The notes under the pieces are model-generated. The model was not told the origin of the DNA. It did not search any database and saw only the letters and a list, made by a program, of their open reading frames with translations. Positions 18,244 through 55,851 of a stretch of DNA of 64,000 nucleotides are shown piece after piece. The DNA comes from Nonlabens spongiae (GTDB taxonomy: Bacteria; Bacteroidota; Bacteroidia; Flavobacteriales; Flavobacteriaceae): positions 248,001 to 312,000 of the forward strand of contig NZ_CP019344.1 in the NCBI RefSeq assembly GCF_002117125.1, in the 5' to 3' direction. Numbering within the stretch: position 1 is the first letter of the stretch; each line of letters begins with the position of its first letter. The position numbers and the translations under genes are program-made.

Positions 18244-18262
18244 GGGATGATATTGAGAAGCT

Positions 18263-18290
18263 GAATTTTAACTCAGTTCTTTGTTACCTG
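18263..18290 (+). repeat. Left array boundary: solitary IS110 right end or repeat end
   Basis: TTTTAACTCAGTTCT followed by TTGTTACCTGCTGGCTT. The first part matches the right termini of the IS110 elements ending at 32571, 37014, 41040 and 55146; the second matches the flank after the copy at 32571. No IS110 left half is present here, so it is either a deletion scar or the original end of a cassette repeat. Confidence 0.55.
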
Positions 18291-18297
18291 CTGGCTT

Positions 18298-18813
18298 TTA
18301 TTCATTATAATTTTTTATTTCCGCAATTTGTCTTCTCAAATTATCTCCCCAAAAATCGTGTTTGTCGTAAAACAATAAACAATCATCTAAAGTTTTTAGC
18401 ATTTCTAATTTAGGCAAAATGTCAATTTCAAAATCCGTTTTCAATTCGTTGGTAAAATCGGTTAAGTCGGTTTTGTCAGTCACTAAGTACCCAAGCCAAC
18501 CGTCTTGTCTGTATTTGCTTGATTTTCTGAATTCTGATAAATAAGATTCTTCTCTTAATTCTACAGCAAGGTCAAAATATGTTGGTTTTTTCTTTTTTGT
18601 GTCGTTCATATTTTCAGTCAGTCCGACACCAATGTTGAAGCAAAAACTCAATTCATCTTTACTATTCCATTGCGAGTTTTGAAGATTTATTAAAATAAAG
18701 AAATCGTCATAAAGTTTCCACCAATTATTTCCTGAAGTCCGAAATCCGCTTTCTTTCAATTTCGGTTTTAAGTAACCTTTAATAAATTCAGTCTGTTTTT
18801 CTTTTGCGTTCAT
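18298..18813 (-). CDS. DUF4304-type protein
   Basis: 171 residues without signal or membrane segment. The start FIKGYLKPKLKESGFRTSGN followed by NWWKLYDDFFILINLQ is typical of DUF4304, a small cytosolic family of unknown role often found as scattered accessory genes. It is much more AT-rich than the neighbouring chromosomal genes. The gene lies tightly between the boundary sequence (8 bp from its stop) and a family-4 repeat (16 bp from its start), a cassette-like packing. Confidence 0.75.
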   Translation of the reverse strand: MNAKEKQTEFIKGYLKPKLKESGFRTSGNNWWKLYDDFFILINLQNSQWNSKDELSFCFNIGVGLTENMNDTKKKKPTYFDLAVELREESYLSEFRKSSKYRQDGWLGYLVTDKTDLTDFTNELKTDFEIDILPKLEMLKTLDDCLLFYDKHDFWGDNLRRQIAEIKNYNE

Positions 18814-18915
18814 TTTTCAGCTTGCAGCTAACACCCACTGCATAAAGCGCGAGTGGCGTTTTCGCTGGATCGCGTTATCGGTGGTATTAGTTTCTGGTCT
18901 TTAAAAGTAGGTAAT

Positions 18916-19932
18916 ACCCGTTGTGCTAGTTAAAATTAAAAAACAGATTAAAAAAAGACCGTGCATTTTGTTGATATTCAGTATATTAATGGTTCCTAAT
19001 CTGTAATTCTGATACCATGCACGATCTACCTGCAATGTACAAAAAACACCTTTCCTACCTCATTGATCTCTACCAAACCGTCACGGTGGACGGAAACTTC
19101 ATCAAGCGACCGGTCAACACGAAAATGAATGACCTGGAGGTCATGGCACTCGCCATTACCGGAGAGGCGGCCTCGATCCCCAGCGAGAACCTATTGTTTG
19201 CCAAGATAAAGAAGCACTTTCGCGAGGACTTTCCCATGCTGGTCGACCGCACCAGGTTCAACCGGCGCAGGCGCTCGCTCGAGCCACGCTTCAAGGAGTC
19301 CGCGGGACTCTTGGGCGACCGTATGGATGATGGCAGATCTGCCCTTCTGGTGGACTCGATGCCCTGTCCCATCGTGCACAACGCCAGGGAGCACCGCATG
19401 AAGATCTGTATGGAAGATCTGGGCACGGCTCCGAGAAAGGGCTACTCGGCGGTTGACCGCCGCTACTACATTGGATACAAGCTCCACCTGCTCATGAGTA
19501 CGCAGGGCATCTTCCATGACATGGCAGTGACCCCAGCAAACGTACACGACATAAAGTTCCTGAAGGAAAGGCAGTACGACGGTAGCGAGGAGAGGCAGAT
19601 CATCGGCGATCGAGGCTATATATCCAGGGAGCTCCAGGCAGATCTGTTCACAAGCTACGGTATAGAACTTCTCACCCCACCCAGGAAAAACCAGCTGGTC
19701 AAAAGCGCATTCTCGCCCGAGAGGAGAAAGAACCGTAAGTTTATAGAGACAAGGTTTTCACAGTTATGCTCCCAGTTCTCCATCAAGATCAACCTGGCAA
19801 AGAGCTTCAAGGGCTTCCTGACAAGGGTCTCAAGCAAACTGGCCGCAGTTGCCATGCTGCAGATGTTCAATAGGGAAAACAACAGACCAATAAATAGGAT
19901 CAGGCATGCATGGAACTACTAGCACAACGGGT
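18916..19932 (+). mobile_element. IS982-family insertion sequence, copy 1 (1017 bp)
   Basis: Ends are inverted: ACCCGTTGTGCTAGT at the left and ACTAGCACAACGGGT at the right. An 8-bp target duplication TAGGTAAT lies at 18908-18915 and 19933-19940. The ACCC terminus and 8-bp duplication fit IS982. It is inserted in a family-4 repeat. Base composition is clearly more GC-rich than the array around it. Confidence 0.95.
19017..19922 (+). CDS. IS982-family DDE transposase
   Basis: 301 residues, intact. Catalytic residues are visible in LLVDSMPCPI (D), IIGDRGYIS (D) and RKFIETRFSQL (E). Upstream DNA-binding part contains RTRFNRRRRSLEP. It differs from the copy at 43143 by one residue (K for E in LLFAKIKKH), so the two copies are recent duplicates. 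Confidence 0.95.
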   Translation: MHDLPAMYKKHLSYLIDLYQTVTVDGNFIKRPVNTKMNDLEVMALAITGEAASIPSENLLFAKIKKHFREDFPMLVDRTRFNRRRRSLEPRFKESAGLLGDRMDDGRSALLVDSMPCPIVHNAREHRMKICMEDLGTAPRKGYSAVDRRYYIGYKLHLLMSTQGIFHDMAVTPANVHDIKFLKERQYDGSEERQIIGDRGYISRELQADLFTSYGIELLTPPRKNQLVKSAFSPERRKNRKFIETRFSQLCSQFSIKINLAKSFKGFLTRVSSKLAAVAMLQMFNRENNRPINRIRHAWNY

Positions 19933-20102
19933 TAGGTAATAGTTTTGGATTTTTGGCCGGCACACAGGGAGCTTATTGCCTACGATGAGTGTGGCGAGAG
20001 GAAAGAGAGAGGGGTTCTCAAATGCTATGTAAGTAACAAAGATTTAAAATGAAAGATTTTAACTTCAGCTCCTTCTAGCTCCTGATTTTATAATCATGTT
20101 TT

Positions 20103-20459
20103 CTAATAATCTTGAATCAGCACCTCAGTAGGAATTCTCAACTTTGTGTTTAGATTCCTTATCATTTCAAGGGTCAGTTTTCGCTTTTTGTTCATTATTT
20201 CACTTACACGACTTTTGAAGCCAATCATCTCAACCAAATCTTTTTGTTTGAGTCCCATTTGTTCCATTCGGAAGCGTATTGCAGAAATTGGATCTGGCAT
20301 ATCGATCGGAAAATTTTCAGTTTCATACTTATCAATTAATATTGAAAGTATTTCTAATTCGTCGCCCTCCTTTGTTCCACGCTTTGCGTCAAAAATTATT
20401 TCAAGCCTTTGAAGTGCTTTTTGGTAGTCGATATCCGTTCTAATTGGTGCTATGTCCAT
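20103..20459 (-). CDS. higA: HigA-type antitoxin with XRE helix-turn-helix
   Basis: 118 residues. The N-terminal half is the HigA oligomer part (DIDYQKALQRLEIIFDAKRG). The C-terminal half is an XRE DNA-binding domain (QMGLKQKDLVEMIGFKSRVSEIMNKKR). It follows the toxin gene by 2 bp, so the order is toxin first, and should neutralise it and repress the shared promoter. Confidence 0.88.
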   Translation of the reverse strand: MDIAPIRTDIDYQKALQRLEIIFDAKRGTKEGDELEILSILIDKYETENFPIDMPDPISAIRFRMEQMGLKQKDLVEMIGFKSRVSEIMNKKRKLTLEMIRNLNTKLRIPTEVLIQDY

Positions 20460-20461
20460 TT

Positions 20462-20755
20462 TTAAATTTCGTTTGCGTCTATTTTATCGTATTCAGCGTG
20501 AGTTCCGATAAACCGTATCCACGCTAGTTGATACTCAAAATTAAATCTTACAATCAACCTATAATCATTCCCTTTTATGTTAAAAACAATCCGGTTGTTC
20601 TTTAAGATACTGGCATTTGGATAATCACTTTTCAAATCGTTTATCGAAATCCAGTTAGACTTTTCGGTTTCGCGATACCACGTTTTTAGTTGCAACTCGC
20701 AGTCGCCGTGTTTCTCCCAAAAAGCCCTTAAAGTTCCTCGCGAAAAAATTTTCAA
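20462..20755 (-). CDS. higB: HigB-type mRNA interferase toxin
   Basis: The HigB_toxin family pattern is clear: SRGTLRAFWEKHGDCE, ARIVFNIKG-like (NNRIVFNIKGNDYRL) and AWIRFIGTHAEYDKID. I choose the TTG start at 20755, giving LKIFSRGTLRAFWEKH, because the longer frame to 20785 would run through the TAnnTTTG promoter box. The toxin would cleave mRNA on ribosomes. Confidence 0.85.
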   Translation of the reverse strand: MKIFSRGTLRAFWEKHGDCELQLKTWYRETEKSNWISINDLKSDYPNASILKNNRIVFNIKGNDYRLIVRFNFEYQLAWIRFIGTHAEYDKIDANEI

Positions 20756-20771
20756 ATTTCTAGGTTTGATA

Positions 20772-20779
20772 CAAAGATA
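20772..20779 (-). promoter_or_regulatory. Bacteroidota -7 box of higBA
   Basis: TATCTTTG on the minus strand matches TAnnTTTG, 17 bp before the chosen TTG start. This cassette therefore carries its own promoter. Confidence 0.55.
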
Positions 20780-20820
20780 AGTCAAAAGTTACCAATATGA
20801 TAACTTTTCTGAATACTTGT

Positions 20821-20980
20821 AATATCCACCGCATAAAGCGAGTGTGGCGTTTTCGGCTGGATCGCGTTACTGGTGGTCTTTGTTTCTCGCCCTTATTAGT
20901 AGGCAATAGTTTTGGATTCTGGTCGCCACACAGAGAGCTTTTGAATCCCGATAGCTATCGGGATGCTTTATGCCTTGTTG
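20821..20980. repeat. Family-4 cassette repeat
   Basis: Arms GCATAAAGCG (20831) and GCTTTATGC (20964) flank a conserved middle (AGTAGGCAATAGTTTTGGAT, CACACAGAGAGCTTTTGAA) and end in CTTGTTG. The loop contains the extra palindrome TCCCGATAGCTATCGGGA at 20946-20963. Confidence 0.85.
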
Positions 20981-21242
20981 TCGGTGGTGCGCTCACCGGT
21001 ATGGTTTTCCCCAAGTGGCTGGTTGGATTATTGGACATTTTCACGATGCCACCTACGCGCAAGTTTATGAGCAAGAGGATGGCACTGGCGGTTGTCGGTG
21101 ATTGAATGTTGAGGGAGCCTTGAAATTGGTTGATGGTCATCTGGTTCTTGGTTGTGCCACCGCTCGATGGATTGTGGGAACTGTTGTCTCGGATGGATGA
21201 TTTCATGGCGGAGCAACATGTCCCTTGGGCAATCACCGACAA
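20978..21242. repeat. 265-bp conserved unit U, copy 1
   Basis: Bounded by inverted TTGTCGGTG and CACCGACAA. Always found between a family-4 repeat and an AACGG repeat (four times in the window). Two overlapping frames stay open on the minus strand but no ORF is recognisable as protein. It could be a gene-less cassette or an RNA. Confidence 0.75.
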
Positions 21243-21364
21243 CGGTCTGGCTATGCGCAGTTGCGTGCCTTAGCCTTGTCTTCCCAAATATACCCAAACC
21301 GTAGAAAATTTCGCAGAAATTTTCGGAAGAGCAAGAACCGAGCAATTACGTATAGCACGTGTTG
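21241..21364. repeat. AACGG-type cassette repeat, family 3b
   Basis: Arms CTATGCGCAGTTGC and GCAATTACGTATAG pair imperfectly; an internal hairpin GAAAATTT/AAATTTTC is present; ends ACGTGTTG. It lies 10 bp from the stop of the following minus-strand gene. Confidence 0.8.
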
Positions 21365-21374
21365 TAAACAGTAC

Positions 21375-22055
21375 TTATCCCAAGATCTTATTACTTAGAA
21401 CTTTTTTTAGTTTTTGCGACTCTTGTTCGCTCAGGTCATTTCTCCAAAATCCAACTTCAATTTCCTTAATCAAGCCATAAACTTTGTTAGCATTCTTAAT
21501 ACCGATTTTATCTATCATAGTGAAAGCTAATTCAGGAACATATTTTGAATTTTGTGATATGAAGTCAGCATATTTTTTGAAATCAACTTTATCTATATAT
21601 TCTATGTATTCGTTGTATTCGCTAATTTCATTTTGGTAAGCATAAAAATCTGGATGGTTAGTCTTAAACGATTCTGGCAAATATGATTTTTCGTGATCTG
21701 ATTCAATGCGTTGTTTTCTTTCTTCAATACTTTTTTTAAGAGAAATAAATCGGCTCAGAGATCTTGTCTTATCTGGCGGATAAAGTTTAGTTCCTTCAAT
21801 CTTATCAAATAGATACTTGTAAGTTCCTTTAATCTTCTTATTGATTAAATCACCTTTATTATTGATTTGATTTTTAGTCTTTTTCGCTAGATTTTTACTA
21901 TCAGCTTTCATTTTATCAAAGTCATCTGGTCTTGCGATTGTTCCACCGTGTTTAGTTCCGACACTCATCCCAGTCATTTTAGAAACCCAAGCTGGGAGTA
22001 CAACGAACCCTACGATGATTACGACAATTATTAGTATAACTCCTAAAAAATCCAT
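21375..22055 (-). CDS. Membrane-anchored hypothetical cassette protein (226 aa)
   Basis: One N-terminal membrane helix (FLGVILIIVVIIVGFVVLPAW), then a highly charged, mostly helical cytoplasmic part rich in Lys, Asp and Glu (for example KKSIEERKQRIESDHEKSY). The C-terminal part (VDFKKYADFISQNSKYVPE) may be an all-alpha domain. No family recognised. Stop is 10 bp from the family-3b repeat and start 31 bp from the next repeat, leaving little room for a promoter. Confidence 0.6.
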   Translation of the reverse strand: MDFLGVILIIVVIIVGFVVLPAWVSKMTGMSVGTKHGGTIARPDDFDKMKADSKNLAKKTKNQINNKGDLINKKIKGTYKYLFDKIEGTKLYPPDKTRSLSRFISLKKSIEERKQRIESDHEKSYLPESFKTNHPDFYAYQNEISEYNEYIEYIDKVDFKKYADFISQNSKYVPELAFTMIDKIGIKNANKVYGLIKEIEVGFWRNDLSEQESQKLKKVLSNKILG

Positions 22056-22086
22056 TTTGGTCTGATTAGTTTGTAGTATTGTTTAC

Positions 22087-22195
22087 AACGCCCACCGAAT
22101 AAAGCGAGTGTGGCGTTTTCGGCTGGTTTCCGTTATGGGTGTTATTTGTTTCTTGCCTTTAAAAGTAGGTAATAGTTTTGGATTTTGGCCACTCC
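22087..22195. repeat. Family-4 cassette repeat, 5' part only
   Basis: AACGCCCACCGAATAAAGCG and the AGTAGGTAATAGTTTTGGAT middle are present; the rest is replaced by unrelated sequence from about 22190. Confidence 0.75.
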
Positions 22196-22243
22196 AAATT
22201 TTAGAAATATATGATCGGTCTGAAAAAGATAACGGCCATAGAC

Positions 22244-22290
22244 GGGCGCTTATGAAGTATGATTTTTATGGATTATAGGGTTGTGCAACG
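22244..22290. mobile_element. Relic of an IS1182-type right end
   Basis: GATTTTTATGGATTATAGGG followed by TTGTGCAACGG resembles the end of the IS1182 relic at 27031-27063 (GGATTTTTATGATTTATAAG, then GTTGTGCAACAG). Only the terminus is left. Confidence 0.5.
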
Positions 22291-22297
22291 GTTAGCG

Positions 22298-22801
22298 TTA
22301 TAGTCTTACATTTTGTTCCACAATGGTGATGCCGTTTTTCATTTCTTTATCGTTCGGTTTCTCAAACCAACTTTCCATAAAATCAAAATTTTCTTGGCTT
22401 ACTTCAAACTCAAAAGTTTCTCCTTTTTCGTTATTTCGTTTCATTACTCTTTCCAAACGTGTTTCTTTTGATATGTCCAAAAAATGGATTTTTAGTTCGT
22501 ATCCATTCGATTCCGCAAACTTTCTAAACTTCTCCCGATGCTTGAATTTAGAAAGTCCCAAATCAAGGATAGAGTCAGTTTTTACATTTTCTAATTGCGT
22601 CACTAATTCCATTATCATTTCTTCCGCTCTGTCAATTCTATCTAAAAACCATTCCAATCCGTCATCTGGTTTTTTATCGGTTAGAAATAAGGTTTTATTC
22701 CACTTATCAATGGAAAAGATTATTCCGTTATTTTTATTTTTCAATTTCGTTGAATAGGTTGTTTTTCCAGAACCAGTATTTCCAACTACAAGGTGAATCA
22801 T
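22298..22801 (-). CDS. Small P-loop kinase-like ATPase
   Basis: 167 residues starting with Walker A (VVGNTGSGKTTYS). ILDLGLSKFKHREKFRKFAE and LKIHFLDISKETRLERVMKRN follow the AAA_33/nucleoside-kinase pattern, the last arginines forming a lid. Such proteins phosphorylate small molecules or resemble zeta toxins; no antitoxin lies beside it. It is packed 42 bp after a GNAT gene in the same direction with no repeat between them, so the two may be one two-gene cassette. Confidence 0.75.
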   Translation of the reverse strand: MIHLVVGNTGSGKTTYSTKLKNKNNGIIFSIDKWNKTLFLTDKKPDDGLEWFLDRIDRAEEMIMELVTQLENVKTDSILDLGLSKFKHREKFRKFAESNGYELKIHFLDISKETRLERVMKRNNEKGETFEFEVSQENFDFMESWFEKPNDKEMKNGITIVEQNVRL

Positions 22802-22843
22802 TTAAGAGGTTTTTAAATGTGTGACAAAGGTTAGTATATAAAG

Positions 22844-23338
22844 TTAGTAGTTCGGGTTTATTTTTTTCTCCATCTTAAAATTTGTCAGTTCCACATTTTG
22901 TCGAACAACAGTTTGCTCTTTTGTCACTTCAAATCCAATTTTTTCAAAAAATGGTCGTGCTGTCTTACTTACATTAGAAGTTAAAGAGAATTGATTCTGT
23001 CGTTTCGCGACATTCTCAATATTTTCATACAAACTGTCAGCAATTCCCTTTCTTTGGTAATTTTTATGAACGTATAAGAAGTCAATGTAATTTCCATTCT
23101 GAAGAGCTATAAAGCCAACAATTTTATTTTTGATCGTAGCAACCAATACGATATGTTTTACTAAGATATCTATCCAACGTTGTTTATTCTCATTATTCTT
23201 AGTGTCGGAAATCCAAGCATCGATTTGGTCTTCATTGTAGTCAGCTTTGCATATTTCAGTTATTGTATCCAAAAACAATTTCTGTAATTCAGTCAAGTCA
23301 CTGATTTGACCTTTCCTAATTGTAAATTCTCTTTTCAC
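22844..23338 (-). CDS. GNAT-family N-acetyltransferase
   Basis: 164 residues. The acetyl-CoA pyrophosphate loop is seen in YQRKGIADSLYENIE, and GFIALQNGNYIDFLYVHKNY is the preceding beta-bulge strand. The C-terminus (RPFFEKIGFEVTKEQTV) is typical of YafP-like relatives. Substrate unknown. Start is 38 bp from a family-4 repeat. Confidence 0.82.
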   Translation of the reverse strand: MKREFTIRKGQISDLTELQKLFLDTITEICKADYNEDQIDAWISDTKNNENKQRWIDILVKHIVLVATIKNKIVGFIALQNGNYIDFLYVHKNYQRKGIADSLYENIENVAKRQNQFSLTSNVSKTARPFFEKIGFEVTKEQTVVRQNVELTNFKMEKKINPNY

Positions 23339-23376
23339 ACCTAATTTTTAGACCGTACTTGTTTTAACTGACCGCC

Positions 23377-23506
23377 AACGCCTACCGCATAAAGCGAGTG
23401 TGGCGTTTTCTGCTGGTTCGCGTTACTGGTGGTATTGGTTTGTTGCCTCTAAAAGTAGGTAATAGTTTTGGATTGTGGTTGCTACACAGAGAGCTTTTGA
23501 AAACGC
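23377..23506. repeat. Family-4 cassette repeat, cut by IS3 relic
   Basis: AACGCCTACCGCATAAAGCG through ACACAGAGAGCTTTTGAAAA; the second arm is lost at the IS3 boundary. Confidence 0.8.
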
Positions 23507-28987: not shown

Positions 28988-29013
28988 TGCACAGGCTTAT
29001 TAAAATTAATGTT

Positions 29014-29605: not shown

Positions 29606-29616
29606 AAATTTAATAT

Positions 29617-46320: not shown

Positions 46321-46534
46321 CGGTGGTGCGCTCACCGGTATGGTTTTCCCCAGGTGGCTGGTTTGTTTATTGGGCATTTTCACGCGGTGGGCGTTGTCGG
46401 TGATTGAATGTTGTGGGAGCCTTGAAATTGGTTGATGCACATCTGTTTCTTGGTTGTGCCACCGCTCGGTGGATCGTGGGGACCTTTGTCTCGGATGGAT
46501 GATTTCATGGCGGAGCAACATGTCCCTTGGGCAA
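46317..46534. repeat. Conserved unit U, copy 3, split by IS3
   Basis: TTGTCGGTG start; a stretch of about 35 bp present in copies 1-2 is missing; interrupted at 46535 by IS3, with CACCGACAA resuming at 47842. Confidence 0.75.
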
Positions 46535-46574
46535 TGTCACGTCCTGAAATATGGCTACAGGTTAATAATTGTTT

Positions 46575-47390: not shown

Positions 47391-47425
47391 GGAAGCAAAT
47401 CCCTTGGACTTCTCCCTGGCTTTAA

Positions 47426-47797
47426 TTAGGGCTTGATACTTAGCTTTTTTTTTAGCTCCAGGACTGATTTGTAGCCCAGCTGTTCTGCAGCAACTTCAAG
47501 ATAGGATTCATCCACAAGGGCATCCATATCCTTTTTCAAGAGTAGTTTTTTAAGCTGTTCAATCTCTTTCTGAAGCTGTTTGATACGTGTTATTTCATCT
47601 TTTGTTTTCACGGTCACACGGGTATTCATAAGGTCTTTACGGTTGTATTTCTTAATCCATTCATTGATGGTAGAAGGAGCGATACCGTAGGCCTTACCTA
47701 ATTGATACTTGTTTAGTTTTCCGGTGGTAAGTTCGTCCAGAATCTTGAGTTTAAAAGACTCTGAATACCGTCTGATTACTTTGTCATTTTTGTACAT
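47426..47797 (-). CDS. IS3 OrfA helix-turn-helix protein
   Basis: 123 residues: GIAPSTINEWIKKYN helix-turn-helix, then a leucine-rich coil (IKQLQKEIEQLKKLLLKKD). The end overlaps the A9 slippery run that fuses it to OrfB. Confidence 0.92.
   Translation of the reverse strand: MYKNDKVIRRYSESFKLKILDELTTGKLNKYQLGKAYGIAPSTINEWIKKYNRKDLMNTRVTVKTKDEITRIKQLQKEIEQLKKLLLKKDMDALVDESYLEVAAEQLGYKSVLELKKKLSIKP
47445..47453 (-). other. Programmed -1 frameshift site (A9)
   Basis: Nine A residues on the minus strand in codons for LELKKKLS of OrfA. Slipping back one base leads to KKKAKYQALIKAREKS and on into OrfB without a stop. Confidence 0.8.
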
Positions 47798-47848
47798 AAT
47801 TGTTTAAGATTATGTAGCCTTTATTCAGGACGGGTCACAATCACCGAC

Positions 47849-47973
47849 AACGGTCTCGTATAACCGTCAGTTACGGGTTAATATGCGTTAATTTTCGGTT
47901 TAGCACTGGCGTTAGCAATTTCGAGTGGATTCGGACGTAGTCGAATCCGCCGTAATTGCGGTTATACATTGTT
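47849..47973. repeat. AACGG-type cassette repeat, family 1
   Basis: GTATAACCGTCAGTTACGG and CCGTAATTGCGGTTATAC arms as at 37652; follows the end of unit U (CACCGACAACGG). Confidence 0.88.
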
Positions 47974-47985
47974 GTAAAACGTTGT

Positions 47986-48546
47986 TTATTCCTTTTTTTT
48001 AATAAGTTCATTTCCAAAGTATAATACAGATAGACTAATTAAAAGACAAGGGAATAATCCAGTGACGAATCCTGTTGGAAATCCGGGTTTTACCATAACC
48101 AAAATAAAGTAAACGATATAACCAAATCCGAATTTGAGCATTCTTTCCATTCCGATCATTCTCTTTGTCATTACAACTATGAAAAATGGAAGAAATACAC
48201 TCAATAAATATCCGCCAAACACGCTATTCATATTTGCGTTTGAATCTAAAGTTAGAAAACCGATAATTCCCATTAAAACCATATTCAGAGCTATGAGAAA
48301 AAGTCCGTTAACAATTTTCGTCCCAATATTTTTTTCTTGGATAGAATTTTCCGTTATAATCAATTCCTTTGAGTCAATTTCTAAAACTTCACAAATCAAA
48401 TTTAGAGTTTTTCCTCTCGGTTCACTTTCAGAGTTTTCAATCCGTTGAATTGTTCTCAAATTTATTTTTGCTTGTTCAGCCAATTCTTCTTGAGTTAATC
48501 CTTTAATTTTTCGAGTTTCGCTTATTTTCTTTGCAATCCAGTTCAT
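47986..48546 (-). CDS. XRE-family regulator with membrane tail
   Basis: 186 residues. The N-terminal XRE helix-turn-helix is textbook (ETRKIKGLTQEELAEQAKIN, then LRTIQRIENSESEPRGKTL). From about residue 80 there are four hydrophobic helices (GLFLIALNMVLMGIIGFLTL and more). DNA-binding proteins of this layout are tethered to the membrane and may sense envelope state; no target gene can be named. Stop is 12 bp from a family-1 repeat. Confidence 0.85.
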   Translation of the reverse strand: MNWIAKKISETRKIKGLTQEELAEQAKINLRTIQRIENSESEPRGKTLNLICEVLEIDSKELIITENSIQEKNIGTKIVNGLFLIALNMVLMGIIGFLTLDSNANMNSVFGGYLLSVFLPFFIVVMTKRMIGMERMLKFGFGYIVYFILVMVKPGFPTGFVTGLFPCLLISLSVLYFGNELIKKKE

Positions 48547-48675
48547 TCTATTAGTTACTTTTATTTAAATCTAAAAGTAGTTATTCGGTCAAAATATGAT
48601 AACGGTTTTCATCTGATTTTTATACGACATTTGCTTTGTCATTAAAAGTCGTAAAGTTTTTTACAAATGTTTTAC

Positions 48676-48799
48676 AACGGTCTTGTATATCTTTCAGTTG
48701 TGGGAATTTGGGACTAAAGATAGTAAAAAGAACTGACTTTAACGCGTGAGCGTTTGTGTCCGCAGGACACATAGCCACAATTGAAGATATACGTTGTTG
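48676..48799. repeat. AACGG-type cassette repeat, family 2 variant
   Basis: Arms GTATATCTTTCAGTTGTGG and CCACAATTGAAGATATAC. Compared with family 2, both arms changed together (AACAA/TTGTT to ATCTT/AAGAT), which preserves pairing. Confidence 0.88.
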
Positions 48800-49236
48800 C
48801 CAAAAGTATTTTTCTTTTAAAAAATAACTTTTCGGTTTTGTTTTAAACTCACTTTCTAAAGAATACATTTAAAAGAAACTTTTTTTGCGTTCAGATCCGC
48901 CGCAAAGATTTTTAAATTTATTGAGCAAGAGTGAGTGCGCAAAGATTATCCTTTTTTTCTTTTTTTAGCGTTTTCATTTTTGCGTCCAGATCAGCCATCA
49001 GGATTTTTTTAATTTTTTTAGAGCAGGAGTGAGCACGCTCTATTTTTAATTTTTTTGTGTTCAGCTATTTTTAGTCAATTGAAAACCGCAACAACTTTTC
49101 ACAAAATTTATTTTCAAGAGTTTTGTTTAGAGATTTTCCAGTTTTAAAAATCTAGAACTTAAATGAAATAAATGTTTTTCGGTTTTAAAACACATTTAAA
49201 AGCTGAAACTTACGTTTTTTGTTTCATATTTTTGGC
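48800..49236. other. Gene-less cassette between two repeats
   Basis: About 437 bp without a supported ORF. It holds two diverged direct repeats: GCGTTCAGATCCGCCGCAAA near 48887 and GCGTCCAGATCAGCCATCAG near 48985, each followed by an A/T-rich run and a (G/A)AG(A/C)A(A/G)GAGTGAG(T/C) motif. Could be an RNA gene or a decayed cassette. Confidence 0.5.
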
Positions 49237-49361
49237 AACGGTATTGTATATAAAAAGTTGCGGATTTTATGCACTAACTTTTCGGTTTGGTACTGACCGT
49301 TAAATTTATGCAATTCACTTTAGATTTAGCACTTAAACCGCTATTTTTTATATACGTTGTT
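49237..49361. repeat. AACGG-type cassette repeat, family 7
   Basis: Arms GTATATAAAAAGTTGCGG and CCGCTATTTTTTATATAC; ends GTTGTT. Third arm variant with compensating changes. Confidence 0.85.
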
Positions 49362-49378
49362 ACCACACGTTTTTTTCA

Positions 49379-49933
49379 TCATTCTGTAACATTGTCAAAT
49401 TCTACTAGTGTCTTTTTAATACCTTCAATTCTTTTAAGCCAATTTCTGTTCGATAAATATACCAATAGTATTAAGGTCATTATCATACCAACAAGTATAA
49501 AATATTTTCCTTGTGTAAAATCAATGGATGAAGTGAAAAAAGATATTATTGCTGAACCAAATAGAAATGAGGTTAATAAAATAAAAATAGACATTCGCTT
49601 TAATGTATTTTGAAAACTGATTAGTGATTCTTTCAAGTTGTCTCCTTTTATAGGATTTCTTAATACAAACCATCCGATAAATCGAGAAATTATATATACA
49701 ATTGAAGTGATAACCAACAATATATTTGTCCAAAGAGGTTTAGTATTAGCATCAAAACCTTTATAATATACTGCCAAAAAAACAATTACCATTGTAGTTT
49801 CAATCATTAATTTTATCCGCATTCTTTTGATATTGGAATGATTCTTTATTTTAGTCATCATAGATAATTCTGTTTGGTTTCTTTTACCTTGTCCTGTTTT
49901 CTTCCAGTTTGATTTTATGTTATCGAGTTCCAT
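49379..49933 (-). CDS. Membrane protein, probable anti-sigma partner
   Basis: 184 residues. The cytosolic start MELDNIKSNWKKTGQGKRNQ is typical of small proteins encoded right after ECF sigma factors in Bacteroidota; four membrane helices follow (starting at about residues 41, 66, 113 and 141) and a charged tail. It begins 6 bp after the sigma gene, so it may hold the sigma factor at the membrane. No classical zinc anti-sigma motif is present. Confidence 0.7.
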   Translation of the reverse strand: MELDNIKSNWKKTGQGKRNQTELSMMTKIKNHSNIKRMRIKLMIETTMVIVFLAVYYKGFDANTKPLWTNILLVITSIVYIISRFIGWFVLRNPIKGDNLKESLISFQNTLKRMSIFILLTSFLFGSAIISFFTSSIDFTQGKYFILVGMIMTLILLVYLSNRNWLKRIEGIKKTLVEFDNVTE

Positions 49934-49939
49934 AGTTTT

Positions 49940-50410
49940 CTATTCTAAAATGTTTTTGAGTTTTTCTTTAATTCTACTGATTTTTACGCCTACATAATTT
50001 TCAGTTATTCCAGTAATTTCACCAATTTCGTTGTACGGATAATCTTCTAAATACAAGGCAATTATTGCTCTTTCTGCTTTATTTAAAGTTCTAATGGCTT
50101 CAAACAATCGTTCCTCGTTTTCAGATGATGTTTCCATATACTTTGAATGATGTTCTTTAGGAATCTTCTCGTTGAATTCAAGCTCTATTTTATTTTTTCT
50201 AAATATTGCTATTGCTGTGTTTAAAGCTATGCGATACATCCAAGTGCTTACTTTTGATTCTCTTCGGAATTTGGGATATGATTTCCATAATTGAAGTACA
50301 ATTTCTTGAAATAAATCTTCTTGGTCCTCTCTTGTGTCCCTATACATTTTGCAGACCTTGTAAATAATCCCTTGATTATCTTCTACTATTTTTAAAAAGT
50401 CTTTCTCCAC
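49940..50410 (-). CDS. ECF RNA polymerase sigma factor
   Basis: 156 residues with region 2 (DQEDLFQEIVLQLWKSYPKF, STWMYRIALNTAI) and region 4 (LNKAERAIIALYLEDYPYNE, IGEITGITENYVGVKISRIK). It should direct polymerase to a small regulon, probably including its own operon. Start and the upstream hydrolase stop share a base (50410), so translation is coupled. Confidence 0.9.
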   Translation of the reverse strand: MEKDFLKIVEDNQGIIYKVCKMYRDTREDQEDLFQEIVLQLWKSYPKFRRESKVSTWMYRIALNTAIAIFRKNKIELEFNEKIPKEHHSKYMETSSENEERLFEAIRTLNKAERAIIALYLEDYPYNEIGEITGITENYVGVKISRIKEKLKNILE

Positions 50411-51783
50411 TATTTAGTTTCTTTTTTGAAGTTAAAAGTTTTCCCCATTCTTTCTGCCATTAAACCAGAAACCAAATCATTATCAATTTGAAATGTTATT
50501 TCAATTTCTATTTTTTTACCAAAAAATTGGTGATTTCCTTTCGGGTAAATTTTAAATGGTGGATTGTTTCCAAGCTTTGCATAAAGACTGTTTTCTACAT
50601 TTTTTATAATGAGTACCATTTTACTTGTTTCTGAAATGAAACTTCCACTATACATTTCGAGATTGACAGATTTTTCAGATATTTTTTCTATTGACGGTAT
50701 TCGAAAAGGTTGTCCAAATACAATTTTCTCAACGTCTGATGCAATTGATGAAATTGGTAATGTGGAAATGTTACTTAAAATAATGATACTTATTTGTTTA
50801 TTACGGTACATTGAATTGTAGGTAGAATATCCCCAAGTTCCGCCACCGTGATATTGTTTTTTGGGCACACTAGAACTCTTATACCACCCATAATTGTAAC
50901 TTTCACTATTCTTTTTGGTCTGTTGAGTAAATATATTTGCTTTAGTTTTTTCGCTCAAAAGTGTATTTGAGAAGAAGCTGTTGTTCCATTTTAATAAATC
51001 CGTTGTGGTAGAATACATATCTCCAGCTCCTTTTAACATAGAATAATTTCGATATGGTGCAGCTACTAAACTATCATCAGTAACTAAATGATAGCCCGAA
51101 GTCAGTTGTGGGATTATTTTTAAGTCGTCAACGATGCCGGTTTCTGTCATTTGCAGTTTGGTCAAGATTTTATCCTTCAATATATTCTCAAAGCTGCTAT
51201 TATAAACGCTCTCAAGTATTGTTGCTAAAAGATGATATCCCAAACTTGAATAATGCATTTGTGAACCTGGTTCAAAAAGTAAATCAAGAGTATTGATTTC
51301 CGTTATGAATTGTTCTGGTGTCATTTGTAGTTTTGATTTTATATGCCAATAATCTTTAATGCCTTCATTGTGTGGTAAGCCTGAAGTATGTGACAATAAT
51401 TGCTCTATTGTTATATCTTTAAATTTTGGTGATACTGCACTTATGTAGTCAATGGCTTTATCTTGAATATTTAATTTACCTTCCTCTTGAGCGATTGCGA
51501 TAAGTGTTCCAGTAAAAGTTTTAGTAATTGAGGCTATTCGATATTTAGCATCTTTTTTCAATTTGAGATTATTCTCGTAGGATGCCAAACCAACTGTTTG
51601 TTGAAAGAGGATATTTTTTCCTTTGGCTACAAGTATTTCTCCATTAAAACCTTCTTTTAAATGGATGGCATTGAGATAGGTTTCGAGCTTTTTTGAATCT
51701 ATAAAACCTTTTGTTTGGGAATTAGCAGTTAAAGATAATCCAAGTAGTAGAGAGATTATGTATAATGTTTTTATTGAGTTCAT
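50410..51783 (-). CDS. Serine beta-lactamase-like hydrolase
   Basis: 457 residues with a signal peptide (IISLLLGLSLTANSQ). The SxxK motif is in RIASITKTFTG, the YxN-like motif in MHYSSLGYHLLATI and the third box in HGGGTWGYSTYNS. This is the class C/penicillin-binding-protein-like esterase group; substrates range from D-peptides to esters. A C-terminal beta domain of about 100 residues follows. First gene of an operon with an ECF sigma factor and its partner; start is 110 bp from a family-2 repeat, enough for a promoter. Confidence 0.85.
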   Translation of the reverse strand: MNSIKTLYIISLLLGLSLTANSQTKGFIDSKKLETYLNAIHLKEGFNGEILVAKGKNILFQQTVGLASYENNLKLKKDAKYRIASITKTFTGTLIAIAQEEGKLNIQDKAIDYISAVSPKFKDITIEQLLSHTSGLPHNEGIKDYWHIKSKLQMTPEQFITEINTLDLLFEPGSQMHYSSLGYHLLATILESVYNSSFENILKDKILTKLQMTETGIVDDLKIIPQLTSGYHLVTDDSLVAAPYRNYSMLKGAGDMYSTTTDLLKWNNSFFSNTLLSEKTKANIFTQQTKKNSESYNYGWYKSSSVPKKQYHGGGTWGYSTYNSMYRNKQISIIILSNISTLPISSIASDVEKIVFGQPFRIPSIEKISEKSVNLEMYSGSFISETSKMVLIIKNVENSLYAKLGNNPPFKIYPKGNHQFFGKKIEIEITFQIDNDLVSGLMAERMGKTFNFKKETK

Positions 51784-51893
51784 AAGACAACGTTTTAATT
51801 TCTATTTTCTTTATAGGTTGTCTTAAATGTTCAAAATCTTACACGTTTTAATATTTTTTCTTGGTTACTCGATTTTTTTTTCAAATGTGTGGT

Positions 51894-52018
51894 AACGGTC
51901 TTGTATAACAATCAGTTGCGGATTGTTTGGAAACTAAGATAGCTAAAATTACCGACTTTTATGCCTGCGCGGTTGTGTCCGCAGGACACAAAGCCGCAAT
52001 TGTTGTTATACGGTGTTG
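51894..52018. repeat. AACGG-type cassette repeat, family 2
   Basis: GTATAACAATCAGTTGCGG / CCGCAATTGTTGTTATAC, inner hairpin TGTGTCCGCAGGACACA; ends CGGTGTTGG. Confidence 0.9.
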
Positions 52019-53301
52019 GTAACAGTATTTTCTAATTCTATTTTGTATAACTCTCCATTCTCAATTAAAAATTCTTGTGGTTTTTCTATATTTCGTATAA
52101 AGTTATTTAGTAACGTAGAATTTTGGTCAAATATTAATTCATTTTCAATTCTTAATTCATTTACAAAATTTCTATTAGAATTAACTATTTCCTTTTTTTC
52201 TATTGTTTTGTTTCTTTTGTTATTTCTAAAAAAATACCATTTATCAAACCATTTTGTATTAATTGAATTTCCTAAATTATGAAGTTCTCCTTCGTGTTTC
52301 TTGAAAAAATTAAAATAGTCTTTTTGCATTTCTTTAAATTCATCGGTTAAGTCGTTTACGATTGCTTTATTAAATTCGTTAGCATACTTAAATTCCAATA
52401 TTTTTCCAAAAATGAACAATTCTTGTAATGAAAGAAAATATTGAATACTCTTTTGGAAATTACTTTCTTCATCTTTTTTTATTTTCTCAATAGAATTTTT
52501 ATAGAAATGGATTAATTCATAGACTTCTATGTTTTTAGCTATAATGTTTGATAAAACTGCATTTTTATAATTTTCGTTTTCACTAATCAAATCAAACTGT
52601 GAAAAAGCTTTCTTGTAAAACACAATCATTGCTTCAATTTTGGCTTCTTTCTTAATAAATTCGAGGTCGATTAAGGTTTCTAATCTTTCGTTAATCTCCT
52701 TTAAATTGAAATTTATTTTTGCAAGATAATGTTGTTTAATAATCATATTTCCTGCGCTGTAAGCAAGCATAGGTGCAGAGACCATTAAATTTGACACATA
52801 ACTTCCGTGAGCTAAAATTTTTCCACCACTCATTATTGCTGTTCCTTGTCCATTTGCAATATTCATAACATTTCCAGTAACACCTTTGGGAAAATTGAAC
52901 AGATATGATTGTGATAATAAACCACCTGAAATAAATTCGGGAATATTTCCGATTGCTTGTAATATTCGATTTGGCTTATTATCTAATGATTTTTTGTTAG
53001 TGACTTGAGGGTTTGTTTTTGCTAATTTTTGAAATGAAAAAATGGAATCTTTAGTTAGTGAGTCAATAATCTTAAATTCGGTTGGAATAGTTTTTCTAGG
53101 CTTTAATAATTGAGTCATTTTTAACAACTCATTTTCTATTTTTCTGCTTTTTTCTTGGTGGTCTTTATTGTAATCAGAAACAGTTTTAAGTGAAGTTTGT
53201 AATTTAAAAAATTCCGACTTTATTTCAGAAAGTTCAGATTTTATGGTCTCTGAATTTTCATTCAATTCTTTAAATCCAAAAAGTTTTTTAAATATGTTCA
53301 T
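52006..53301 (-). CDS. Hypothetical cassette protein (431 aa) ending inside the repeat
   Basis: No family recognised. Residues 1-70 are a coiled coil (ESETIKSELSEIK-like: NSETIKSELSEIKSEFFKLQ). Residues about 115-210 are Gly/Ser/hydrophobic (GGLLSQSYLFNFPKGVTGNV, LMVSAPMLAYSAGNMI) and may touch a membrane. The rest is helical and charged. The last residues NTV use the GTATAA of the family-2 repeat as stop codon. Start is 22 bp from a family-4 repeat. Layout loosely recalls pore-forming effector proteins, but that is a guess. Confidence 0.65.
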   Translation of the reverse strand: MNIFKKLFGFKELNENSETIKSELSEIKSEFFKLQTSLKTVSDYNKDHQEKSRKIENELLKMTQLLKPRKTIPTEFKIIDSLTKDSIFSFQKLAKTNPQVTNKKSLDNKPNRILQAIGNIPEFISGGLLSQSYLFNFPKGVTGNVMNIANGQGTAIMSGGKILAHGSYVSNLMVSAPMLAYSAGNMIIKQHYLAKINFNLKEINERLETLIDLEFIKKEAKIEAMIVFYKKAFSQFDLISENENYKNAVLSNIIAKNIEVYELIHFYKNSIEKIKKDEESNFQKSIQYFLSLQELFIFGKILEFKYANEFNKAIVNDLTDEFKEMQKDYFNFFKKHEGELHNLGNSINTKWFDKWYFFRNNKRNKTIEKKEIVNSNRNFVNELRIENELIFDQNSTLLNNFIRNIEKPQEFLIENGELYKIELENTVTNTV

Positions 53302-53323
53302 ATGTCTGTCTCATATTGTTACC

Positions 53324-53476
53324 AACGCCCACCGCATAAAGCGAGTGTGGCGTTTTCGGCTGGTTCGCGTTATCGGTGGAATCGGTTTGTTGCCTCTAAA
53401 AGTAGGCAATAGTTTTGGATTCTGGCCGCCACACAGAGAGCTTTTGAAAATGCCACATTCGCTTTATGCCTTGTTG
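53324..53476. repeat. Family-4 cassette repeat
   Basis: AACGCCCACCGCATAAAGCG to CGCTTTATGCCTTGTTG; simplest copy without a loop palindrome. Confidence 0.88.
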
Positions 53477-53701
53477 TCGGTGGTGCGCTCACCGGTATGG
53501 TTTTCCCCAGGTGGCTGGTTTGTTTATTGGGCATTTTCACGCGGTGGGCGTTGTCGGTGATTGAATGTTGTGGGAGCCTTGAAATTGGTTGATGGTCATC
53601 TGGTTCTTGGTTGTGCCACCGCTCGGTGGATTGTGGGGACTTTTGTCTCGGATGGATGATTTCATGGCGGAGCAACATGTCCCTTGGGCAATCACCGACA
53701 A
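53474..53701. repeat. Conserved unit U, copy 4 (228 bp)
   Basis: TTGTCGGTG to CACCGACAA; lacks about 37 internal bp, like copy 3. Confidence 0.75.
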
Positions 53702-53818
53702 CGGTCTCGGCTATGAGTAGTTGCGTGGTTTAGCACTTAACTTAGCAAGTATGCACCAAACTGAAAATCCGCGAGGATTTTCAGAAATAGGCAATAACAA
53801 GCAATTACTTATAGCCAT
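53700..53818. repeat. AACGG-type cassette repeat, family 3a, cut by IS110 b
   Basis: Nearly identical to that at 39594; cut at the same CT by IS110 and continued by TTGTTGTG at 55148. Confidence 0.88.
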
Positions 53819-53850
53819 CTTAAGTTTGATTTCAGTTAATTTTATTAGAT

Positions 53851-54026
53851 AAACCAGAAAGAACAAAAGAGAGGATTAAGGTCAATATAGCCAGAGGAAC
53901 TTTAGATTCCGTCAACATTGATGATCACCTCTCTTTTCCACTTTTAGTTCGTTCAGTTCTGTGAGACCTTTGGATCTCGTTTTTAAGTTGTTGAAGCCTA
54001 GGTGGATCGTTCTTTCCCAATTAAAT
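53851..54026 (+). ncRNA. Putative IS110 bridge RNA (element b, copy 2)
   Basis: Stem AAAGAGAGG (53866-53874) / CCTCTCTTT (53928-53936), target guide TATAGCCA (53886-53893), donor guide CAGTTCT (53954-53960). Confidence 0.6.
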
Positions 54027-54030
54027 ATCT

Positions 54031-55002
54031 ATGGATAAATATAGTAAAATCCACGGTGTGGATATCAGTAAGGATTTCTTTGATGTAATTGACGATCTGG
54101 GCAACCACTACCAGTTTGACAACAGCCTGAATGGTTTCAGGAAGTACCTCAAGACATTGGACGCTGAGAGCCTTGTTGTCATGGAGGCGACGGGCTATTA
54201 CCACTATCTGCTGGCTCAGTTCCTGCACGACTCTGACATCGCCGTCTCGGTAGTCAATCCATTGTCGGTAAAGCGTTTTCTGCAGATGAAGCTTACCAAG
54301 GTAAAGACCGACAAGAGCGATGCAATGGGCATCAGGGACTATGCAATGGTCAATGAGGTTCCGCTCTACGATGGCAAGGGAGCCGTACAGGCGGAATGTC
54401 TACAATTGCTGGCCCTGATGGACATCTACCTCAAACAGCGCACTCAGGTCAAAAACAAGATCCACGGAGAGAAGGTACTGGGCACGCCTTCAAAAGCGGT
54501 GTTTGGTTCCTTAAAAAGAACCTTGAAGATGCTGGACAGGGAACTGGTCTCGCTCAACGAGCGCCTATTGTCGCTGGTCAAGCAGGATCAACAGGTACAG
54601 CTTACCAATCTTAAGAGCATACCTGGTCTGGGCGATAGGACATCTGCGCTGTTGATCGTACTCACAGAGGGCTTTACCAAGTTTGACAACGCCTCACAGC
54701 TGCGTAACTATGCCGGCATCACACCCACGATAAGGCGGTCTGGCAGCAGCATAAGGGGTAGGAGCAGAATAAGCAAGGTGGGCAACCGAAAGCTTCGTAA
54801 CCACTTGTTTTTGTGCGCTTTCTCTGCAAGTAGACACAACAAGGCATGTAGGGAGCTCTACGAACGTATCACGGCCAAGGGCAAGAGCAAGAAGTTGGCA
54901 CTTATCGCCGTATCCAACAAACTATTGAAACAGGCATTTGCCATTGCAAAATCCGGCCTGCCCTATGACGATGGCTACGTTTCCCGTCTGGTCAAGGAGT
55001 AG
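54031..55002 (+). CDS. IS110-family DEDD recombinase (element b)
   Basis: 323 residues, identical to the product at 39925; same DEDD and serine motifs. Confidence 0.95.
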   Translation: MDKYSKIHGVDISKDFFDVIDDLGNHYQFDNSLNGFRKYLKTLDAESLVVMEATGYYHYLLAQFLHDSDIAVSVVNPLSVKRFLQMKLTKVKTDKSDAMGIRDYAMVNEVPLYDGKGAVQAECLQLLALMDIYLKQRTQVKNKIHGEKVLGTPSKAVFGSLKRTLKMLDRELVSLNERLLSLVKQDQQVQLTNLKSIPGLGDRTSALLIVLTEGFTKFDNASQLRNYAGITPTIRRSGSSIRGRSRISKVGNRKLRNHLFLCAFSASRHNKACRELYERITAKGKSKKLALIAVSNKLLKQAFAIAKSGLPYDDGYVSRLVKE

Positions 55003-55111
55003 AAATGAAGTTAAAAAATACTGGTGGTGTTGATGGCTTGTTGGACTGGAGGCAAACCTGATAGGGTTTGTCCCATTTCAACAATGCCACGTAGCCGGAT
55101 CGTGCCTAAAA

Positions 55112-55498
55112 TTAACGAGTAATTTGCTTGGTTTTAAACTCAGTTCTTTGTTGTGTGTAGGTTTTATTTTTATTTATCAATTCAGTTATTTTTTTCGCTT
55201 TTCCATAATCCGCATCATTCAGCCATATTTTTAAATTCCGCTTTTCAGTTTTCAGAATTAAATTTGCTTTCGTTTTAAATTTCCCTCCGTTTCCACTTCC
55301 AGTTAAAAAGTCGACTACTACGCTCAAAATTGAAATCAGCCAATTAGTTCGTTCAGAGTTCAATTCCGCACTTTTTATTTCAGTGTATGAGTAAGTTCCG
55401 TTATTTTCCGGTTCGGAAGCATCAATGACATTAAATTCATCCGTATTCAGGATAAATTTTAATTCAGGTTTATTTCTCAATTCAACAGTTTCTGTCAT
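55112..55498 (-). CDS. Hypothetical cassette protein (128 aa), tail altered by IS110
   Basis: A soluble beta-rich start (PELKFILNTDEFNVIDASEP) followed by SERTNWLISILSVVVDFLTG, a hydrophobic stretch, and a beta/helix end (LILKTEKRNLKIWLNDADYG). The last dozen residues (RTEFKTKQITR) are encoded by the right end of IS110 b. Rejoining the repeat across the IS gives TQQRWL and a stop from the repeat's CTATAA, so the original protein was shorter. It is the outermost gene of the array, 36 bp from the candidate entry site. Confidence 0.6.
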   Translation of the reverse strand: MTETVELRNKPELKFILNTDEFNVIDASEPENNGTYSYTEIKSAELNSERTNWLISILSVVVDFLTGSGNGGKFKTKANLILKTEKRNLKIWLNDADYGKAKKITELINKNKTYTQQRTEFKTKQITR

Positions 55499-55534
55499 TC
55501 AGCGTTCTGATTTTTTAACTTACACACAACTAGT

Positions 55535-55627
55535 GTATATCCGCAATATATCAAAAACTACCATATATACACCTCATTCTAGCGGTATATCCGCAAGTTT
55601 TTGAGCAAATATCTATATTGCGGTATA
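55535..55627. other. Candidate recombination (attI-like) site at right array edge
   Basis: GTATATCCGCAA occurs directly at 55535-55546 and 55585-55596, and TTGCGGTATA in inverted orientation at 55618-55627. These clustered 10-12 bp sites in an AT-rich stretch, exactly between the first cassette gene and the chromosome, resemble binding sites of a tyrosine recombinase. No recombinase gene is adjacent. Confidence 0.35.
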
Positions 55628-55851
55628 AATGGTATATAAGCATGTTTGACGATTTTATAACGCCTATCGAGATCAGAAAATACCGCCCAAAGCCGTAAAA
55701 ACTTTGAATGGTTTAATGTTCGCATTTCAAAGACTTATAGAACATCTCTCGCGCATCTATTTTGTAGAATCTCATTTTTGAAACCAATGTATTAGAACGA
55801 CCTGCTATAAGTTTTAACAACATCATCTGCGATAAATAAATTTTAACCTTT
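55628..55851. other. Non-coding junction to chromosome
   Basis: About 220 bp without a supported gene; only short open stretches (for example FDDFITPIEIRKYRPKP ended by a stop). May hold remains of a lost gene. Confidence 0.4.

Follow-up and report, generated by a model that had tools for sequence, protein, structure and literature searches.

An integron-like system of gene cassettes in Nonlabens spongiae, with an integrase and sites unlike canonical IntI and attC

Can an array of gene cassettes behave like an integron and yet fail the tests that define one? The question is raised by a 64,000-nt stretch of the Nonlabens spongiae genome (assembly GCF_002117125.1, contig NZ_CP019344.1, positions 248,001 to 312,000; hereafter the window, whose own numbering is used unless contig C1 or C2 is named), in which small genes alternate with similar long repeats. 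A first-pass annotation made from the sequence proposed an integron-like cassette array without integrase. We consider it very probable that the window contains an integron-like cassette system, represented at this locus by an array minus its integrase. Judged by sequence, the system behaves like an integron, yet it fails the defining tests for the integrase IntI and for the recombination site attC. The proposal is borne out by the single polarity of the repeats, by a tyrosine recombinase that co-occurs with them, and by a difference of exactly one cassette between two contigs of the genome.

The window contains 20 repeats of two types, all in one orientation on the minus (gene) strand (Table 1); the repeats annotated initially are thus real, and their number, given as about 21, is corrected to 13 plus seven. 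The 13 minus-strand copies of the R1 type are about 130 bp long (E from 7.5e-8 to 1.7e-28 in a scan of the window with model R1). Since the model was trained on 10 of these 13, the proof lies in its matches in other genomes. The second type (AACGCCCACCGC; type A in Table 1) has seven copies, with an outline like that of the R1 type. Two weak matches on the plus strand (E 0.006 and 0.27) came out of the same scan, each overlying one of the 13, because the repeats are near-palindromic. A search of the window against Rfam yielded nothing above the gathering score of any family.

On the gene strand, a repeat consists of AAC, three bases, a stem arm, a variable loop, the other arm, 6-7 bases, and GTT. 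The inner stem has 11 bp followed by an A/C mismatch and 6 bp; in the main type one of its bases is bulged. The A/C mismatch of the gene strand is a G.T pair on the opposite strand. Genes end close to the next repeat, as had been noticed in the window: a median of 17 bp separates the stop codon from the AAC-box end, and 75% of the distances are at most 40 bp (213 units from 10 arrays, counted by the longest frame on the gene strand).

The analysis drew on 20 regions, chosen by eye from integrase and repeat matches. In 12 arrays the repeats part genes with one polarity, all 304 counted repeats pointing the same way, and so do all 92 in nine arrays added later. The first count excludes five weak opposite-strand matches (E 0.006-0.43; window 49232 and 47858, L014 1577, L013 11413, L017 6968), four of them overlying a stronger match, and one same-strand match (L016 13512, E 0.005), and contig C2 was not treated as an array; the second excludes L096 16238 (23.8 bits), opposite to a stronger match at the same spot.

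The boundaries of a cassette are marked by complementarity: the bases after GTT of one repeat are complementary to the bases before AAC of the next. For 280 cassettes (gaps between repeats up to 3000 bases), the first and the last ten bases pair in 61-100% of cases per position, with 84-93% at positions 4-9 and 61% at position 10; positions 12-14 pair in 75-78%, and beyond position 14 the figure is 33% or less. As the letters vary between cassettes, this pairing is covariation. Position 11 is special, with A at 99% of starts and G in 81% of reversed ends, so that 226 of the 280 cassettes have an A/C mismatch here, which is T.G on the other strand. Summed over the 12 arrays, 186 of 290 adjacent start/end pairs match in at least 8 of 10 positions, compared with only two repeats whose own two flanks do so, and other pairs average 2.4-4.1. 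The nine later arrays agree: at least 8 of 10 positions match in 71 of 83 adjacent pairs, 3 of 92 own-flank pairs and 23 of 843 other pairs, and position 11 is A at 83/83 starts, while 87% of the reversed ends have G there. One of the nine (L099) comes from genome G159, which also fed the broader model R2 described below, and the other eight (seven genomes) fed no model. Because the ends pair only within one unit, the outer arm of the site would be complete only where the ends of the same cassette meet, i.e. in the excised circle. This complementarity, absent from the first-pass annotation, is the strongest evidence for cassettes.

Folding of the sites is consistent with such a structure. The inner stem has 494 double-change cells, compared with 165 in shuffled controls and 19-79 when the alignment is slid, the alignment having been fitted to the same structure, which favours the count. 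Calculated with DNA energies, folding favours the bottom strand over the top one in 263 of the 268 circle junctions modelled and in 246 of 268 array sites. The circle junction folds better than the array site in 244 of 268 cases (5 equal, 19 worse), by 5.4 kcal/mol on average. Thus, by sequence and energy, one strand folds into an R stem, an unpaired spacer and an L stem, as in integrons. Two stems of about 11 bp with a six-base one-sided spacer also resemble the pair of arms in a Xer-type core site, here folded from one strand.

The exchange point can be approached by comparing copies of one cassette. Among 111 full-length cassette pairs (10 of the 12 arrays, gaps up to 2500 bases), 106 are followed by different cassettes, and, counted from the final G of the cassette, the copies part after 2-4 bases in 94 of these (after 2 in 27 pairs, 3 in 53 and 4 in 14) and after 5-29 bases in the remaining 12. 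Of the pairs at least 97% identical, 24 of 29 part at 2 or 3. This parting point puts the predicted crossover at G^TT or within GTT, a range wider than a single bond. In canonical integrons it lies in GTT between bases 1 and 2, according to a passage of PMC8876359. Cassettes are also shared across genera: one N. spongiae cassette of 904 bases recurs in genome G101 with 100% identity over 902 of them, and a second shared cassette of 1584 bases is 94% identical. The joined region of G101 (L062-L065) has runs of successive cassettes (36-40 and 42-45) that recur in one order, pointing to block duplication alongside the movement of single cassettes.

A single insertion is seen within the genome itself. 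Contig C2 (13,959 bases) matches a region of C1 at 99.9% identity, and it carries one additional 376-base unit exactly at G^TT of the insertion site. When the unit is removed, C1 and C2 are identical over 1388 bases, from 600 before to 788 after the site; beyond them the ungapped comparison breaks, probably at a short indel, and the gapped alignment stays at 99.9%. The unit has eight differences from its new neighbour, so it is no copy of it; it is identical to two cassettes further down the 1.21-Mb array of C1 and to window unit 53326-53701, the ends of which had been fixed before this comparison. The 376-bp cassettes have no obvious gene and are interspersed among gene cassettes; the copies at window 53326-53701 and in L013 at 5779-6154, 9056-9431, 12476-12851 and 17326-17701 are 97.9-100% identical. 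Gene-less cassettes are known in integrons, and those of Vibrio carry promoters, as stated in part of PMC11014356; by analogy, the 376-bp cassette could carry a promoter as well.

The array head in the window is the insertion site 55526-55657, at the right edge of the interval delimited initially. A gene for a tyrosine recombinase of 275-283 amino acids is found at C1:1.21 Mb, oriented away from the adjoining sister array, the first cassette of which starts 88 bases from the listed TTG start codon and 112 bases from an ATG. The stretch between this integrase gene and its first cassette differs from window positions 55526-55657 by one mismatch in 132 bases; the window retains 16 bases of the integrase gene at the insertion site and then departs. 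From the attI-like site and this 16-base remnant, the window is best read as the head of an integron without its former integrase gene. The absence of an integrase stated in the first-pass annotation therefore holds for the locus and not for the genome, which has one at the sister array 0.9 Mb away. The third array of the genome begins at the same insertion-site motif.

Other arrays have a similar layout. In all nine later arrays, 48-193 bp separate the first cassette from the matched stretch of the integrase; in six of the 10 arrays studied earlier the distance is 81-118 bp, the array of N. spongiae having been placed by eye. In total, attI stands beside the integrase and at the array head in 7/10 (one of them at a larger distance, given below) and 9/9 arrays. 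The integrase is read in the same direction as the array in 13 of 19 cases and divergently in six. Of the recombinases of the array type, 15 of 16 have a listed repeat at most 15 kb away, compared with 9 of 80 other tyrosine recombinases, the repeats considered being the best 150 of 607 R1 matches. The 12 genomes of this count had been preselected for having both integrase and repeats, so the contrast is between recombinase types within them; the integrase position in G121 was taken from a separate search. Residues R132, K157, H221, R224, H247 and Y256, which we take to be catalytic, are invariant in 42 aligned sequences (the N. spongiae integrase and 41 relatives picked from 120 listed).

The genome (3.39 Mb, two contigs) has R1 matches at 45 places (E<=0.1). 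The first-pass annotation had named repeats spreading independently of genes as evidence against cassettes; in fact, 44 of the 45 lie in three arrays of C1 (269-302 kb, 1067-1089 kb and 1210-1227 kb) or on C2, and one is a weak single match. In the same family, R1 matches (E<=0.001, at most 13 candidates scored per genome) were found in 210 of 249 genomes including this one, and the integrase (E<=1e-40) in 147 of 249. Model R2, built from 150 of 266 repeat matches, has matches (E<=1e-5) in 79 of 296 genomes of the phylum, 19 inside the family and 60 outside. Long arrays occur in G068 (87 repeats in 80 kb), G113 (70 in 78 kb) and G101 (54 in the 76 kb fetched). As these matches indicate, the system is common in Flavobacteriaceae and present in other Bacteroidota. 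Both taxa are assigned from named relatives of the integrase, close ones of which occur in Nonlabens, Maribacter, Dokdonia and Costertonia aggregata, among others.

Several observations weigh against this interpretation. The counts of genomes with repeats and with integrase (210 and 147 of 249) mean that some arrays have no detected integrase partner; 15 of 29 integrase loci have an R1 match (E<=0.5) inside their 1-1.5 kb flanks. For one of the 16 array-type integrases (G159:2190249), no repeat is listed closer than 15 kb, and at the integrase locus of a genome of the same genus (G010, one TAG in frame) no R1 match was found in 10.9 kb (L071). Among the 10 earlier arrays, the first cassette is at 397 bp in G201, and no clear one is seen in G101 and G006. 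In array G215, which is sparse in repeat matches, end pairing does not exceed that of other pairs (mean 3.4 compared with 3.0; one of five pairs). Of four single window repeats folded as DNA, the bottom strand was better in two, equal in one and worse in one, and the bulged base of the main type is on the arm opposite to the one that carries the extrahelical base in canonical attC. The insert specific for IntI (patch III) is absent from all seven array integrases aligned (30 were extracted) and present in 3/3 IntI of Shewanella. Finally, C2 could be an assembly product as well as a real variant, though an assembly product would still require a cut at the crossover.

The most serious alternative is a diverged canonical integron, in which IntI and attC are of the known type and only their consensus is lost. 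We regard it as rather unlikely. Besides the missing insert, the N. spongiae integrase scores 153.4 bits with TIGR02249, the curated IntI family, below the cut-off of 265 (five Shewanella IntI score 346-370); its best NCBIfam match is NF040815, also below the cut-off (183.6 bits, 220 required). The GTTRRRY core is present at only 38 of 280 cassette starts and the inverse core RYYYAAC in 37 of 280, so the sites are not canonical attC, and the letters of the outer stem vary, pairing by covariation. In the tree, the array integrase groups with IntI and not with XerC/XerD, and IntI forms a single clade (support 100/100) beside the array integrases, which stand on one side of the best tree with support 33/27. 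A long-branch multi-copy recombinase (L091), initially labelled Xer, fell among them in this tree. In a first tree with two Xer rows, the array integrases needed two changes, with one change in 13% of bootstraps. A search of genome contigs with the integrase gave five loci, four of Shewanella and one of Clostridia, none with an R1 match at E<=0.5; the four Shewanella genomes gave no R2 match, an empty search answer being no proof of absence.

Two side observations concern recombinases. A Shewanella contig (G250:C30; L079, L074) encodes both a canonical IntI (position 2531) and a 283-aa relative of the array integrases (15587), 13 kb apart. Contig G100:C1 has eight 304-aa tyrosine recombinase frames with nearly equal scores (e.g. 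at 1275201 and 2299341), five of them within 15 kb of listed repeats; perhaps they belong to a mobile element using the arrays.

Homologous recombination between repeats, or old static arrays with an incidental integrase, would explain the likeness of repeats within an array and the recurrence of neighbouring cassettes as blocks in G101. We think it quite improbable and have rejected static arrays on the polarity and crossover data: the copies part within a few bases of GTT (94 of 106) and not within the repeat or at random, the start/end pairing is kept across hundreds of cassettes with differing letters, and C2 has its extra cassette at attI. Repeats spreading between genes on their own, like repetitive extragenic palindromic (REP) sequences or miniature inverted-repeat transposable elements (MITEs), or carried by insertion elements, would account for the numerous near-identical copies and for IS110-type elements within several of them, but should be dispersed, in both orientations and independent of genes, and this explanation is rejected as having hardly any chance, given the single polarity, the clustering in arrays, the complementarity spanning gene and repeat, the crossover, and the integrase and attI at the array start.

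For the integron-like system, the observed anatomy, polarity, unit boundaries, crossover in GTT, neighbouring integrase and attI, and the one insertion at attI can be put together as follows. A cassette would consist of a gene, or of several or none at all, followed by a repeat, and when excised it would form a circle whose complementary ends frame the repeat. The folded bottom strand would have an outer stem of about 14 bp (GTT/AAC, seven more pairs, a G.T wobble at position 11, three pairs), then an internal loop of 3 and 6-7 bases, the inner stem of 11 bp (with a bulged T in the main type), a G.T wobble, six pairs and the variable loop. A dedicated XerA/IntI-like tyrosine recombinase, encoded beside the array, would treat the two stems as the arms of its binding site and recombine the folded strand with the attI next to its own gene, G^TT to G^TT, so that cassettes would enter at the first place and in one orientation. 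Insertion would split the outer stem, the bases after GTT now coming from the next cassette, and this would make stored cassettes poorer substrates than free circles. We infer that this recombinase performs the reaction, that the single bottom strand is its substrate, and that the split stem favours stable storage. Bottom-strand recombination at attI is a known route of integrons; poorer stored substrates would be new.

Whether the system represents an independent second integron class, a sister of the IntI integrons that is ordinary in Bacteroidota, with a "circle-only" code of the outer arm and an uptake ratchet, seems to us an evenly balanced question. If so, the outer hairpin arm would be written half at each end of the cassette and close only when the cassette is free; free cassettes would be good substrates and stored ones poor, which amounts to a built-in ratchet for uptake, and the system may show integrons as they were before IntI acquired its extra domain. 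The array integrases, as a likely sister group of IntI, would be of use for testing the origin of integrons, and an outer stem closed only in the circle is a testable rule for the direction of cassette traffic. The system also opens a store of accessory genes.

Like canonical (sedentary chromosomal) integrons, it has an integrase and an insertion site followed by a one-way array of small genes with foldable sites, cassettes exchanged as gene plus site, and gene-less cassettes. Unlike them, it has no IntI insert, has the GTTRRRY/RYYYAAC boxes only in a minority of sites, has an outer stem of about 14 bp with a fixed G.T at position 11 that is predicted to close only in the circle, and resides in a different host group. 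In lacking an integrase, the window array resembles a cluster of attC sites lacking integron integrases (CALIN), described in part of PMC9668308 as at least two attC less than 4 kb apart and no IntI, and it has this layout; unlike a CALIN, it retains an attI-like site and 16 bases of the integrase gene, and its sites are not canonical attC. The below-threshold match to NF040815 ("site-specific tyrosine recombinase/integron integrase") likens the integrase to XerA-like simple tyrosine recombinases.

IntegronFinder uses models of canonical IntI and attC, and the system would be expected to escape searches that rely on the IntI domain and on canonical attC. The phylum itself is common to this system and to reported integrons: it is listed among integron carriers in passages of PMC8618304 and PMC9668308, and for Bacteroidetes an excerpt of PMC9024848 (IntegronFinder 2.0) mentions formerly In0 elements only and later one complete integron, in Salinibacter ruber. 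An older survey that included the Bacteroidetes/Chlorobi group kept, according to a portion of PMC2426708, only integrases with the additional domain or patch of IntI. PMC8138268 reports incomplete conservation of the insertion in its "integron-like subgroup", so such integrases may already have been seen as sequences; the relevant part of that paper describes no arrays or sites. No description of such arrays or sites was found in open PMC papers, preprints and most subscription papers being outside this scope.

Within the window, the units were scored by the match between start and end over 14 positions (Table 1). Twelve of 20 units match in at least 10 of 14, and the other eight in 3-6. Four of the latter can be paired by eye, the end box being separated by an IS110-type element or the match being shifted. 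In unit 53702-55529 the start GTTGTGTGTAAGTT matches the end box beyond the element, at 55150, in 13/14, and in 39596-41662 the end box at 41044 matches in 11/14. In 31212-37653 the end box of the CHAP-domain gene (37018) matches its start in 14/14, insertion elements parting the box from any hairpin, and in 21243-22088 a shift brings the start GTTGTAAACAATAC into agreement with the end box at 21361 (13/14). Units 42780-46161, 23379-28863, 22089-23378 and 18832-20822 are still unpaired, and the first of them is probably a fusion of cassettes, since its ends do not match. The end box of the last cassette, GTTACCTGCTGGC at 18283, matches its start in 11/14 by eye.

Table 1. Features of the cassette array in the window, from the insertion site downstream (domain assignments from Pfam where so marked; ends, matching positions of 14)
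Feature	Position	Strand	Content	Repeat	Ends
attI-like insertion site	55526..55657	-	first cassette from GTT 55530-55528; two direct copies of GCGGATATAC		
Integrase gene remnant	55642..55657	+	ATG and next 13 bases, then divergence (alignment)		
Cassette 1	53702..55529	-	gene 55112-55498	53700-53827, cut by IS110-type element ~53828-55149	
376-bp cassette	53326..53701	-	no obvious gene	type A, 53324-53480	11
Cassette	51896..53325	-	gene 52006-53301, no Pfam match	51894-52022	13
Three-gene cassette	49239..51895	-	unknown protein, sigma-70-like factor, beta-lactamase-family serine hydrolase (Pfam)	49237-49366	13
Cassette without long gene	48678..49238	-	body without a frame of 60 aa	48676-48803	13
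Cassette	47851..48677	-	helix-turn-helix (HTH) protein 47986-48546 (Pfam)	47849-47978	12
376-bp-type cassette, split by insertion element	46162..47850	-	94% to 376-bp unit	type A, 46160-46323	11
Unit	42780..46161	-	TPR protein 44076-46046; DDE element ~43041-44060	42778-42906	5
Cassette	41663..42779	-	HigB-like toxin and HTH antitoxin (Pfam)	41661-41789	13
Cassette	39596..41662	-	ParDE pair 41060-41678	39594-39721, cut by IS110-type element ~39722-41043	
Cassette	38625..39595	-	two genes 38761-39584, no Pfam match	38623-38753	13
Cassette	37654..38624	-	cation-efflux protein 37797-38591 (Pfam)	37652-37782	13
Unit	31212..37653	-	CHAP-domain gene 37034-37618; non-cassette genes 32793-34682	31210-31342	
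376-type cassette, degenerate	30773..31211	-		type A, 30771-30953	10
Unit	28864..30772	-	LtrA-family gene on + strand (Pfam)	28862-28991	10
Unit	22089..23378	-	GNAT and P-loop kinase genes 22298-23338	type A, at 22087, one end lost	4
Cassette	21243..22088	-	gene 21375-22055	21241-21371	
376-type cassette	20823..21242	-		type A, 20821-20984	11
Unit	18832..20822	-	HigB-like toxin and HTH antitoxin 20103-20785	type A, 18830-~18930, cut by DDE element (18915-~19935)	4
Last cassette	18283..18831	-	DUF4304 gene 18298-18813		
IS110-type elements, four	~31350-32577, ~35977-37017, ~39722-41043, ~53828-55149		PF01548/PF02371 in one tested copy; others are its repeats		
DDE element, two copies	18915-~19935, ~43041-44060		one copy tested		

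The initial statement that nearly all genes of the array are on the minus strand needs revision, as plus-strand genes occupy 24753-30750 (alcohol dehydrogenase, ABM, AraC, LtrA; Pfam), and insertion elements of IS110, DDE and other types break up the array. We assign two to three elements of the window tentatively to the IS3 type; the element that splits unit 46162-47850 is presumably of this type. Largely non-cassette-like stretches lie at 23.5-28.9 kb and 31.3-37.0 kb. A second run of ordinary-looking genes, at 32793-34682, encodes an aquaporin, HbpS and AraC (Pfam). Three of the IS110-type elements lodge between the end box of a cassette and a hairpin, as if targeting such sites, for which IS1111-attC elements offer a parallel. 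In the three-gene cassette, the serine hydrolase (50410-51783; beta-lactamase family, PF00144) shares its unit with the sigma-70-like factor.

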